In this document: one piece after another, positions 57,022-62,025 of the stretch | Position numbering within the stretch: the first letter of the stretch is position 1 | Layout: each line of letters opens with the position of its first letter | Assembly (NCBI GenBank): GCA_030765065.1 | Contig: CM060978.1 | Span: 116,789,692-116,853,691, forward strand | From: Deroplatys truncata | Lineage: Eukaryota > Arthropoda > Insecta > Mantodea > Mantidae | Direction: 5' to 3' | DNA length: 64,000 nucleotides | The notes under the pieces: generated by a model | What the model saw: only the letters and a program-made list of their open reading frames with translations | Databases searched by the model: none | Told to the model about the DNA's origin: nothing | Made by a program: the position numbers and the translations under genes

Positions 57022-57025
57022 TCTG

Positions 57026-58165
57026 TGCGATAGCAAATATTTGTTTTTACTTCACGCGTATTTGCGAGAGAACTTGCTTTACGTAATGTCTTTTTGTTGT
57101 CGAGCCCCACGTTGTGGGCCAATTTGTAACATAATTCTTGCTTACGTAATTTGTTTTTACGTAATTTATTGTTGAGCCCCACGTTGTGGAACCAATTATG
57201 CGACGGAAATGTTGCTTACATAATATTTGTGTTTGTGTTTGTTAGCCCCACGTTGTGGAAGCCAATTTGTAACGGTATTAATGTTACAAATGTTGTGTGT
57301 TTACTTCACGCGTTGCCATCTTGTGACGTCATTCGTTGGTTGGTTCGTAGCTCCCTCTGGCGTAGCAATTTGTATCAATTAGTTTCTGAAAGAATTTAAA
57401 GTTTTGTATATTGTCCTCCGGCTAGCTATCATCTTATCTTGGTAGAACTTGTATCTCTTGCAGGGTGTGAATCAGAAAGGAATCTTTTATCCAGAAATGA
57501 TACTGATGAAGAAATTGGTTTTATAACTTTATTGTCAAACACGTTCATTAACACTTTTACAAATTGATCTGGATACTCGCCGAACTGAAACTGTTTGTAA
57601 TAACTTCTTATTTATCACTTTTAACTCGCATACTTCAACTTTATGTAATTTTTTAAATGTATAATACTTTATAATAATTCTCGTAATTTTGCTGCGCGTA
57701 ACTTGACGAAATGAAGGACTGGCTGACGATGTGTAGTGTGTTGAGAATTCTGTTAAACTGGGGGACAAGCTACCTCGAACCTACACTATTTATACGCTTG
57801 CCTCAAGATACGCCTAAAGATTATAAATGAACTGCTATTGGCTAATAAAACGCGCCAACATTAGCGTCTATTTAAATATCCAATGAAAACCACGAATACA
57901 TATTACTTTAGGAAATGTTCAAGAAGCTTCTATCGAAACCGCGCGAAATATTACGCAACTTCCTTGTTCCCGGTAATGATAAACAACTCACCCCCTCGCT
58001 GCATTATTGCGTTATTGTTGACAGTTTCAGTAAAGCCGTATATTATTATTTACCAATAATAATTGCAATTAACAAACCTCTGAAATCAATGTCACATAAA
58101 AATACATATTCATATTACTATCATTAATTACATCTGAGTAATTTGTGATACAAATTACCGTATCA
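57026..58165 (-). repeat. 3' LTR of element 2 (1140 bp)
   Basis: At its outer end (in element orientation) it reads TTGCTATCGCA. It contains a single copy of the 240-bp unit, with PBS-like motifs starting at 57104, 57176 and 57245. Its inner end at 58165 is preceded by the same AGTGGGGCATA tract as in element 1. Compared with the 5' LTR it lacks a 40-bp stretch bounded by GTGTAGTGT repeats. Confidence 0.88.
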
Positions 58166-58969
58166 TATGCCCCACTAGAAACATAATTATAAATATTTAT
58201 AACTTTTTTGGAAATTTTATAATTGTGTTTTTAGTCTCCTAAATCTTGGAACACACGTTATCACTTTCACTTAACACTTCACACGCATTTAACACACGAC
58301 ATGTTTTTCCCCTATCTCGCCACTACTTACTGGCTCTGGTTTAATTAATTTAGATATTCATCTGACATCACAAAATTTTTTATAGCAAATACTTTACCCT
58401 AAATTATTTAATCACTGTTTTAAAATTGTTTACTCTCTTACATTGTTGACAAAAATTTATACATTTAAGATTTTTGTAATTATTACACATATTTACCAAA
58501 ATATTCACCCTCTACACAAATATTTACATCTCTTAAATCTAGACAATGTTTCACCTTTTCTGTTTGCTACATAAGTATTTGTTTTGAATTATTTTTACCC
58601 ATTTTTGTTATTTTGTACTTTATTTTAACAATATTCTTGGAATTGTATTTACGCACCTTTACTTTAATATCATATTAAATTTCAATCATTGCATTCTTAA
58701 TTTTTTTTAAATCTTGGAATTGTATTTACGTACTTTTAATTTCATATCATATTAAGTTTTAATCTTTGCATTCTTAATTTTCAAATGTTGTTACAGTTAC
58801 TAAAAATTTAAATTTTTTTTTTTTAAAACATTTCCTTTTTTTTTTTTTTTTTTTAATTTATTTCTCTTTTCAAATGACATATATATTTAGTTAACCCGCT
58901 TACGTTCCAATACATTTCTCTGCAAGTCATCTTTACCTATCCAGCATTTACTTTACATCACATTGCTAT
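58166..58969 (-). other. Element 2 3' untranslated region
   Basis: Aligns with the 31540-32196 region of element 1 on the opposite strand, with T-rich expansions near 58800-58860. No open frame. Confidence 0.7.
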
Positions 58970-60053
58970 TTACCCTCCTGGATCAAATTGTGTGTGGCTA
59001 AACATTACTCGTAGCCGTATCCTAACCTTCACATTGTTCATGAATAACCTATTGTATTCATTTGACATTTCATTCCCTGATAATATTTGAAAACAATCTA
59101 CAGTTTCTTTTACAACAAATCTTTTAACAACTTTCATTTTCAATTCATCTGCTATCTTTTTAACTTGAGAGTACTCTGACAAATCTGTACTAAACTGTAC
59201 TGGACTGGAGTTTTCATTTTGAACATCTTGGTACAATTTATTTCTTTGCATTACTGACTCCTTCTGTATTTCTGATATTTCCCCTCTGACATTAACTTGC
59301 GCCTCATTCACATCTACATTCCTAACCTCTTTTATTTCTCTTAACTCACTTGAAATACTACTCATTTGACTTCCTAACTCTGTACATTCTACATTAACCT
59401 CACTTTTAGTATTAACCTCACTTTCTTTGTTATCTCTTTCCCTACTCATGTCTAGCATTTTCTTTGAAACTTCTCCTATCTCACTTACTATTACTTTTTC
59501 ATTTTCATCTCTCATTTCTGGCATACTACTATCTAGCTTCATAACTTTCTTTTCAGTTTCTTCCCTGCTTTGATCTACTTTTTGCTCTAATATCTCATTA
59601 CTCCTACCAATATCTTCAATTGATTTCCTATGATCCCTTTTTATATCTTCTCTCAATTCCTCCAAACTCTGATCTAATTTCTTACTAATATATTCCCTCG
59701 TTTCCCTACAATTCTTTTGCATATTCTGAGTTAATCTTTGTCCTAATTTCTCATAACTCTTTTGCATATCTGCTCATATTTCTCAGCATTTCCATAATCA
59801 TAATAGTATCAAGATTAACATTTCCTGCTATTCTATTCTCACCTTCTGCACTAACATTTTCATCTTCAAATCCTAAAAAATCTGGGCTATTTTCTGTACT
59901 AACATTTTCATCCTCAAATCCTAAAAAGTCTGGGCTTCTTTCTGTAATTTGTATTGGATCACAGCTAACTGTTACACTATCTCCCTCCATAATTATTTCT
60001 TCTGTATTACTAGCAGCCATTGTTTTTATTATCCTACAACTCCTAAGGAACAT
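58970..60053 (-). pseudogene. gag: Broken, internally deleted gag of element 2
   Basis: The first frame (59751-60053) matches the start of element 1 gag but repeats the segment NSPDFLGFEDENVS in tandem. The second frame (58970-59767) carries the coiled-coil part (SLEELREDIKRDHRK and similar). It then skips the spacer before the capsid domain (YQDVQNENSSPVQF) and stops shortly after QFDPGG. A frameshift near 59760 separates the two. The Arg-rich C-terminus is absent. Confidence 0.85.
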
Positions 60054-60324
60054 TTAAATTGGTTTACCTTTTTGATGCTGTATGTTGCTGTTACTTTAAT
60101 GTCCAGCGTTCTGCCCCATTCTCCTAGGTTTGTATGTCGCTTCTGCGTTGTATTATGATGAATCTACGTCGTCTCGATGTTTTTGTAGTTGAATTACCCT
60201 GTTGTCTCGGAATCTGCGTCTTGTAGATCATTTCACTGCTCCATTCATTCCTTCCTGGCTATGTTGATTCATTCCTGGTCGTGTTCCTTTCCTGGTCACT
60301 TCGCCTTCCTTTCCTGGTTATCAC

Positions 60325-60344
60325 GCCCCACGTCCTGGGTGCCA
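60325..60344 (-). promoter_or_regulatory. Outermost, degenerate PBS of element 2
   Basis: In element orientation TGGCACCCAGGACGTGGGGC, which is the tRNA-Lys PBS with one substitution and a 2-nt insertion. It is followed by the leader (ATAACCAGGAAAGG) equivalent to element 1, so it occupies the position of the element 1 PBS. The sequence before it (TTGTCTCA) does not match the outer end of the 3' LTR. Confidence 0.75.
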
Positions 60345-60576
60345 ATTTGAGACAATTTGCGAGAGCAAGTTTATGTTTTTACTTCACGCGTATTTGCGAG
60401 AGAACTTGCTTTACGTAATGTCTTTTTGTTGTCGAGCCCCACGTTGTGGGCCAATTTGTAACATAATTCTTGCTTACGTAATTTGTTTTTACGTAATTTA
60501 TTGTTGAGCCCCACGTTGTGGAACCAATTATGCGACGGAAATGTTGCTTACATAATATTTGTGTTTGTGTTTGTTA

Positions 60577-60594
60577 GCCCCACGTTGGGCGCCA
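60577..60594 (-). promoter_or_regulatory. Perfect tRNA-Lys PBS copy, middle
   Basis: The reverse complement is exactly TGGCGCCCAACGTGGGGC and is preceded, in element orientation, by GCTATCGCAAAT. Confidence 0.85.
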
Positions 60595-60816
60595 ATTTGC
60601 GATAGCAAATATTTGTTTTTACTTCACGCGTATTTGCGAGAGAACTTGCTTTACGTAATGTCTTTTTGTTGTCGAGCCCCACGTTGTGGGCCAATTTGTA
60701 ACATAATTCTTGCTTATGTAATTTGTTTTTACGTAATTTATTGTTGAGCCCCACGTTGTGGAACCAATTATGCGACGGAAATGTTGCTTACATAATATTT
60801 GTGTTTGTGTTTGTTA

Positions 60817-60834
60817 GCCCCACGTTGGGCGCCA
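60817..60834 (-). promoter_or_regulatory. Perfect tRNA-Lys PBS copy, likely the one last used
   Basis: Same perfect 18-mer. The 3 nt before it and the LTR end GCTATCGCA match the outer end of the 3' LTR. Using it gives 5' and 3' LTRs with the same terminal unit. Confidence 0.75.
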
Positions 60835-60837
60835 ATT

Positions 60838-62021
60838 TGCGATAGCAAATATTTGTTTTTACTTCACGCGTATTTGCGAGAGAACTTGCTTTACGTAATG
60901 TCTTTTTGTTGTCGAGCCCCACGTTGTGGGCCAATTTGTAACATAATTCTTGCTTACGTAATTTGTTTTTACGTAATTTATTGTTGAGCCCCACGTTGTG
61001 GAACCAATTATGCGACGGAAATGTTGCTTACATAATATTTGTGTTTGTGTTTGTTAGCCCCACGTTGTGGAAGCCAATTTGTAACGGTATTAATGTTACA
61101 AATGTTGTGTGTTTACTTCACGCGTTGCCATCTTGTGACATCATTCGTTGGTTGGTTCGTAGCTCCCTCTGGCGTAGCAATTTGTATCAATTAGTTTCTG
61201 AAAGAATTTAAAGTTTTGTATATTGTCCTCCGGCTAGCTATCATCTTATCTTGGTAGAACTTGTATCTCTTGCAGGGTGTGAATCAGAAAGGAATCTTTT
61301 ATCCAGAAATGATACTGATGAAGAAATTGGTTTTATAACTTTATTGTCAAACACGTTCATTAACACTTTTACAAATTGATCTGGATACTCGCCGAACTGA
61401 AACTGTTTGTAATAACTTCTTATTTATCACTTTTAACTCGCATACTTCAACTTTATGTAATTTTTTAAATGTATAATACTTTATAATAATTCTCGTAATT
61501 TTGCTGCGCGTAACTTGACGAAATGAAGGACTGGCTGACGATGTGTAGTGTACACGAAATTTTGATGAACTGGACGGCCGACGTGTAGTGTGTTGAGAAT
61601 TCTGTTAAACTGGGGGACAAGCTACCTCGAACCTACACTATTTATACGCTTGCCTCAAGATACGCCTAAAGATTATAAATGAACTGCTATTGGCTAATAA
61701 AACGCGCCAACATTAGCGTCTATTTAAATATCCAATGAAAACCACGAATACATATTACTTTAGGAAATGTTCTAGAAGCTTCTAAACGGAAAAAACGCGC
61801 GAAACATTACGTAACTTCCTTGTTCCCGGTAATGATAAACAACTCACCCCCTCGCTGCATTATTGCGTTATTGTTGACAGTTGCAGTAAAGCTGTATATT
61901 ATTATTTACCAATAATAATTACAATTAATAAACCTCTGAAATCAATGTCACATAAAAATACATATTCATATTACTATCATTAATTACATCTGAGTAATTT
62001 GTGATACAAATTACCGTATCA
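60838..62021 (-). repeat. 5' LTR of element 2 (1184 bp)
   Basis: The boundary is set by the PBS at 60817-60834 and by agreement with the 3' LTR. It differs from the 3' LTR by a 40-bp extra repeat (about 61542-61581), a 4-bp difference near 61790 and scattered substitutions. The TATA box is at 61639-61646. Confidence 0.75.
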
Positions 62022-62025
62022 TCTG

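Follow-up and report, generated by a model that had tools for sequence, protein, structure and literature searches.

Introduction

In standard reverse transcription, the U5 (unique 5′) end of a long terminal repeat (LTR) is the place where the transfer RNA (tRNA) primed; within a family, both the length of the LTR and its border with the leader are taken to be constant, and they serve as a basis for dating, classification and annotation. Engineered retroviral vectors with two primer-binding sites (PBS), associated with Voronin and Pathak (2004, J Virol 78:5402), reportedly showed that a single RNA can carry more than one functional PBS, with initiation at either. Here, we describe two related LTR retrotransposons in a 64-kb stretch of the genome of the mantis Deroplatys truncata (contig CM060978.1; hereafter ‘the window’), and consider in particular ‘element 2’, a natural copy that carries several PBS, together with copies of its own LTR end.

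Other systems in which the PBS is multiplied are known from lentiviruses. In HIV-1 MAL, a 23-nt insertion downstream of the PBS derives from a partial PBS duplication (accessible part of PMC3185550), and multiple PBS copies arise during replication of HIV-1 revertants in culture (PMC1084362, as excerpted). The LTR1 lentiviral vectors carry two PBS, such that the position of the primer decides the content of the provirus (from the available extract of PMC5542766).

Results

The LTR ends of the two elements record different sites

The window (35% G+C, no N) contains element 1 on the plus strand (24539-33303) and element 2 on the minus strand (57026-62021), with LTRs that are 77-80% identical between the two; all comparisons of borders made below rest on these two elements (n=2), both in the one window. 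Each has TG...CA LTR ends, a 4-bp target-site duplication (TSD; AAGC/AAGC in element 1, TCTG/TCTG in element 2) and the same 17-nt polypurine tract, GTTTCTAGTGGGGCATA (32180-32196 in element 1, 58166-58182 in element 2). An earlier, sequence-only reading of this DNA had placed element 2 at 57022-62025; these coordinates are right, with TCTG as both 4-bp TSDs, and the matching TSDs point to one integration.

The same reading held that the outer end of the 3′ LTR matches the sequence before two inner PBS copies (here PBS-a and PBS-b), but not that before the PBS at 60325-60344, which it called ‘outermost’ (here PBS-c; nearest gag and the most 3′ in the RNA). Both statements hold. On searching both strands of the window, TATTTGCTATCGCA (element sense) occurs three times: at the 3′ LTR outer end (57026), before PBS-b (60598) and before PBS-a (60838). 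PBS-c (60344-60325) is preceded instead by CTTGCTCTCGCAAATTGTCTCA, which does not match the 3′ LTR outer end.

For every candidate site, we derived the U5 that the 3′ LTR would have, counting from a shared anchor, and compared it with the observed U5 by edit distance. Just one of the ten sites in element 2 predicts its 3′ LTR U5, namely PBS-a, at an edit distance of 1 of 351 (T/C at a CpG); the distances for PBS-b and PBS-c are 241 and 491. In element 1, a single site of four fits the 3′ LTR end, this being the PBS at 25649, where the residual distance of 2 corresponds to two TSD bases included in the comparison. Leader and gag start are shared downstream of PBS-c and of the element 1 PBS (blastn aligns 25641-25782 with 60352-60210, and continues beyond), which makes PBS-c the syntenic counterpart of the latter. 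The PBS matched by the 3′ LTR end of element 2 is not the syntenic counterpart of the one that its relative used; measured against leader and gag, the LTR border of element 2 is 490 bp further upstream than that of element 1. We have here a clear example from nature of several PBS accompanied by LTR-end copies, in which the LTRs of two relatives end at different members of an array. We tentatively suggest that primer choice within this array of ‘cassettes’ sets the LTR/leader border, and that element 2 was primed upstream, at PBS-a; we regard the chances of this being correct as close to evenly balanced.

PBS-like sites and their predicted pairing

The window has 20 matches to a degenerate PBS-like string (TGG, 4-10 nt, ACGTGGKGC), all of them within element 1 or element 2 (a site that recurs in both LTRs of an element contributes two); 100 second-order Markov windows, generated as a control for chance, held 5 occurrences in total. 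The 5′ half of element 2 has ten such sites, running from 61076 to 60325 in the order f1, f2, f3 (U5), PBS-a, f2, f3, PBS-b, f2, f3, PBS-c, and that of element 1 has four: f1, f2, f3 (U5), then the PBS. The arrangement CA-AAT-TGG is found at 10 of the 14 sites of both 5′ halves (7/10 in element 2, PBS-a, PBS-b and PBS-c among them, and 3/4 in element 1); the exceptions are the three f2 copies of element 2, with CA one base further off, and f1 of element 1, with TA.

The perfect 18-mer TGGCGCCCAACGTGGGGC is present in the window only at 60577-60594 and 60817-60834, exactly where the earlier reading had put its perfect inner copies. Compared with the tRNA-Lys1,2 PBS as listed in Table 2 of PMC1084362 (available in part), PBS-a and PBS-b match at 18 of 18 positions, with the other sites 2-4 edits off and the element 1 PBS at 2 edits. 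The complementarity of PBS-a and PBS-b to the 3′ 18 nt of tRNA-Lys1,2 makes this tRNA a candidate primer. Duplex energies predicted against the 18-nt tRNA end are -43.2 kcal/mol for PBS-a, -37.6 for the element 1 PBS, -33.6 for PBS-c and -31.3 for f1 of element 2, the weakest being f1 of element 1 at -24.1 kcal/mol. We also considered another tRNA for the 20-nt PBS variants, and set it aside because the extra two bases do not fit the acceptor stem, as judged by eye only. ARAGORN found no tRNA genes in the window.

The units of element 2 and the age of the arrangement

Over 219 bp, the unit in the 3′ LTR has no differences from unit A, at the U5 end of the 5′ LTR; unit B, in the leader, has 1 (position 100, CpG), and unit C has 4 substitutions (positions 204, 206, 208 and 214), with a 10-nt insertion between the last of these and PBS-c. 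Across the first 203 bp, these four copies show 1 difference. Outside the units, the two elements diverge by 8-26% in alignable leader and by ~20% in the LTR. The near-identity of LTR and leader units implies that the LTR/leader split is young, or that the units have been kept alike by exchange; taken together with the different end of unit C, it argues against both an old fixed leader and a duplication that occurred purely after insertion.

The first of these possibilities supposes that the PBS after unit A is always used in the subfamily of element 2, with units B and C as ordinary, inherited leader. The order LTR-PBS-a-leader is indeed formally canonical in element 2; drift would be expected of such a leader, yet the four copies vary at that one position in their first 203 bp, against the divergence seen between the elements, and the leader of element 1 has no such units. 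We consider a fixed leader improbable.

Near-identical 240-bp tandem units are prone to slippage and unequal exchange, and a tandem duplication of this kind between PBS-like repeats might have added leader units after insertion. This is a possible origin of unit B, which alone could postdate insertion. As the sole cause we rejected it on the end of unit C, which is hard to make in this way, and on the A end carried by the 3′ LTR; given that A end, the 5′ side at birth must already have contained both an A end with its PBS and, more internally, the C end with PBS-c, such that at least one leader unit was already present. We judge post-insertion duplication, as an explanation for the leader units, to be very improbable. 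Arrays of near-identical 240-bp units are also easily miscounted in assemblies; two features are independent of that count, namely that the C end is unlike the A and B ends and that no A end precedes PBS-c, and it seems to us scarcely credible that a wrong number of units accounts for the arrangement.

U5 cassettes and the LTR pair of element 2

A colinear alignment of the U5 regions of both elements runs through f1, stops just behind it (25497, 61047), and resumes at the leader-adjoining PBS (25641, 60352); in between, the cassettes of the two elements align only as repeats, in several registers. One alternative register (element 1 25491-25614 to element 2 60861-60747, 70.6%) would put the counterpart of PBS-a inside the element 1 LTR, but was not relied on because the cassettes are mutual repeats. 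At its tail (CGCGTGAAGTAAA...), unit A is similar to the end of U5 that precedes f1 (80% over 66 columns). On the evidence of these alignments, we suggest that f1 may be an old border, with the two lineages gaining at least some of the cassettes behind it independently.

The LTR pair of element 2 shows 10 aligned mismatches, nine of which lie in the first 260 of 1140 nt, with one difference in the last ~700 bp (binomial P 1.3e-5 for the clustering, in a stretch picked after seeing the data). Small gaps are found in the clustered stretch, and a 40-bp indel lies downstream of the TATA box, at ~position 431 of the 5′ LTR. In a three-way alignment with 12 substitution columns, three of them in the gapped stretch, element 1 has the 5′ LTR base at 7 and the 3′ LTR base at 4, and differs from both at 1. 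These clustered differences, which neither of the two mechanisms weighed in the Discussion accommodates in a simple way, could be due to a cycle that drew on two templates, or to gene conversion at a later time. As a separate observation, the LTR of element 1 holds a 39-bp tandem repeat in 2.5 copies (24947-25043, 32605-32701), which aligns with the place of the 40-bp indel.

Anatomy of the elements and their surroundings

The coordinates of all features are collected in Table 1.

Table 1. Features of the two LTR elements in the 64-kb window (positions are those of the window)
Feature	Position	Strand	Remark
TSD AAGC, element 1	24535-24538 and 33304-33307	.	
5′ LTR, element 1	24539..25645	+	U5 with PBS-like f1 (from 25469), f2 (25518), f3 (25595)
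PBS, element 1, TGGCGCCATCAACGTGGGGC	25649..25668	+	adjoins leader; site recorded by own 3′ LTR
gag open reading frame, element 1	25981-28023	+	680 aa
pol open reading frame, element 1	28170-31532	+	1120 aa; protease, reverse transcriptase, RNase H, integrase
3′ LTR, element 1	32197..33303	+	1107 bp, identical to 5′ LTR
TSD TCTG, 3′ side of element 2	57022..57025	.	
3′ LTR, element 2, TGATACGG...TATCGCA	57026..58165	-	1140 bp; U5 is one 240-bp-type unit with f1, f2, f3
Polypurine tract region, element 2	58166..58182	-	directly before 3′ LTR
Internal region, element 2	58166..60324	-	leader and gag remnants
PBS-c, TGGCACCCAGGACGTGGGGC	60325..60344	-	syntenic with element 1 PBS; not recorded by 3′ LTR
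Unit C, leader of element 2	60345..60576	-	
PBS-b	60577..60594	-	18/18 to tRNA-Lys1,2 PBS
Unit B, leader of element 2	60595..60816	-	
PBS-a	60817..60834	-	18/18 to tRNA-Lys1,2 PBS; recorded by 3′ LTR
AAT spacer between LTR end (CA) and PBS-a	60835..60837	-	
5′ LTR, element 2	60838..62021	-	1184 bp; unit A at U5 end
PBS-like f1, f2, f3 in U5 of element 2 5′ LTR	61076-61057, 61006-60988, 60933-60916	-	
TSD TCTG, 5′ side of element 2	62022..62025	.	

A Pfam search with five pieces of element 1 found, in order along pol, RVP_2 (21.3 bits against a cut-off of 20.3), RVT_1, RT_RNaseH, Integrase_H2C2 and rve; the gag piece matched no Pfam family. The nearest solved structures by sequence are 4ol8, followed by the Ty3 Gag-Pol structure 7q5b, and a protein search with a 250-residue piece of the reverse transcriptase returned 10 distant proteins, at identities of ≤41%, which are uninformative on LTR anatomy. 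By its predicted pol domain order, LTR ends and TSD, element 1 is classed as a Ty3/gypsy LTR retrotransposon. It appears young, with identical LTRs and long open gag and pol frames.

Judged by its sequence, element 2 is a deleted copy: in piecewise blastn comparisons, parts of gag and the whole pol reading frame of element 1 (26726-27093 and 27364-31532) have no counterpart in it, and the open reading frames of ≥80 amino acids in its internal region are 58970-59767 (265 amino acids) and 59751-60053 (100 amino acids). The proteins of element 1 could conceivably act in trans for it. The 3′ internal part of element 2 also has a 77-bp tandem duplication (1.9 copies, 58635-58781), and the leaders of both elements have short direct repeats (21-22 bp) containing ACCAGGAAAGGA in the element sense (25675-25724 and 60284-60327).

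Two further repeat families are present in the window. One, of ~730-900 bp, is dispersed and dense (15771-16656, 34706-35612, 38750-39605, 41171-41904 and 53176-54020), its long matches being 80-92% identical. The other, of ~270-310 bp, resembles a short interspersed nuclear element and has many copies (33437-34005, 9668-9948, 10617-10909, 17097-17394, 22309-22576, 40461-40773 and 52497-52809), including a head-to-tail dimer that adjoins element 1.

Discussion

Synthesis of these observations leads us to a tentative model for how the border of element 2 might have been set. The U5 regions of both elements, along with the leader of element 2, contain an array of cassettes, most of them comprising an LTR end (CA-AAT) and a tRNA-Lys PBS or near copy of one. 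We suggest that the parental RNA of element 2 carried more than one PBS, and that the tRNA annealed to the perfect, upstream PBS-a, not to the mismatched PBS-c; minus-strand strong-stop DNA begun at PBS-a would then yield a one-unit LTR, and minus-strand synthesis continuing up to PBS-a would keep units B and C as leader. We also speculate that strand transfer between a PBS and the f1 site in U5, which resembles it, may increase the number of units, and that a descendant with three PBS sites, primable at any of them, would have a border free to slide between rounds of copying. According to the accessible text of PMC3832253, plus-strand synthesis stops at the first modified tRNA base. The perfect match of PBS-a and PBS-b to the tRNA-Lys1,2 PBS is as expected where the plus strand has copied the tRNA.

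Several points weigh against this model. Only two elements are compared, with LTRs that are 77-80% alike; the window holds no multi-unit LTR, which the sliding route would need in the parent; and the clustered U3 changes between the LTRs of element 2 are left unexplained by a simple, single-template cycle. The PBS that element 1 used is imperfect (2 edits, -37.6 kcal/mol), so that a perfect match is not required for use. Moreover, a misdirected plus-strand transfer leaves the same junction.

In this last scheme, which is the chief rival to a choice of site, the tRNA-copied PBS end of plus-strand strong-stop DNA would anneal to f1 on a minus strand that reaches into U5, this minus strand being derived from another RNA or primed at f1. 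One U5 unit and a perfect PBS would be added to the leader on each occasion, and the border would never have moved. Consistent with this, PBS-a and PBS-b are perfect tRNA complements that run on into the downstream sequence of f1 (TAACAAACAC), unit C ends differently from A and B, as though a second template had contributed, the U3 differences between the element 2 LTRs are clustered, as if from two templates, and the LTRs seen are all of one unit. Saying this, the minus strand must extend to f1, a weaker tRNA site (-31.3 versus -43.2 kcal/mol), and two units would need two events, unless unit B is a later duplication. We consider misdirected transfer possible, but on balance unlikely. The predictions of the two schemes differ, in that sliding requires two- or three-unit LTRs somewhere in the genome, and transfer does not.

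The sequence-only reading had gone further than the junctions, proposing that priming at 60817 left the remaining units in the leader, and that the border may move from one replication cycle to the next. Its structural part stands: the 3′ LTR points to PBS-a, which lies 490 bp upstream of the counterpart of the element 1 PBS, the remaining units are in the leader, and the border does differ between the two elements. Its account of how they came to be there is supported in part, misdirected transfer explaining the same junctions without any shift of border. Movement from cycle to cycle is an inference that goes beyond these data, which comprise two elements, with LTRs 77-80% alike, and no multi-unit LTR in the window. 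Extending the choice of primer site more generally, the LTR end may itself be a choice and not a fixed sequence, such that the tRNA picks a cassette in each cycle, material passes both ways between LTR and leader, and the former primer sites in U5 (three per element) represent earlier borders; we offer this broader view as a plausible but doubtful one.

If primer choice does re-cut the border, then members of one family would have LTRs whose lengths vary by whole units, leader sequence would be found within LTRs, and the place where the tRNA primed would be recorded in every inserted copy. Such a family would provide a natural two-PBS system for the study of primer selection and strand transfer, and one route by which long LTRs grow.

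Comparison with known systems

We searched for similar arrangements in a set of viral contigs, which may omit records of the window's own genome, such that misses there say little. An exact 19-mer PBS scan gave one match (L001), without a blastn match to the window at 1e-5 and taken as chance; a scan for the tandem-PBS pattern gave none, and a locus search based on reverse transcriptase gave 4 pattern matches, none encoding a relative. The sequence-only reading had known of no described family that behaves in this way. Among the matches listed in the open-access literature, we found no natural family with this multi-PBS/LTR-end structure, which is weak evidence of novelty; the claim needs qualifying, in that engineered two-PBS vectors and HIV-1 PBS duplications exist.

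The engineered two-PBS vectors are man-made, whereas the copies here are natural, and the LTR end is repeated along with the PBS; the LTR1 vectors are likewise engineered and, as described in the extract available, have a single LTR. The duplication in HIV-1 MAL is short and partial, with no LTR-end copy or U5-shared unit mentioned in the accessible part of PMC3185550; element 2, by contrast, has full 18-nt copies at a spacing of 240 bp and, 490 bp from the first of them, a 20-nt variant, all separated by U5 units. In the HIV-1 revertants, the PBS had been altered to that of another tRNA, and the excerpted text of PMC1084362 reports no shifted LTR end.

The present elements also resemble Ty3/gypsy elements (Metaviridae) with a tRNA-Lys PBS, with which they share TG...CA LTRs, a 4-bp TSD, a PBS, a polypurine tract, gag and, in element 1, a pol with the order protease, reverse transcriptase, RNase H and integrase. 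They differ from these in having three PBS-like copies in the U5 of both elements and, in element 2, two perfect PBS together with U5 units between the LTR and gag.

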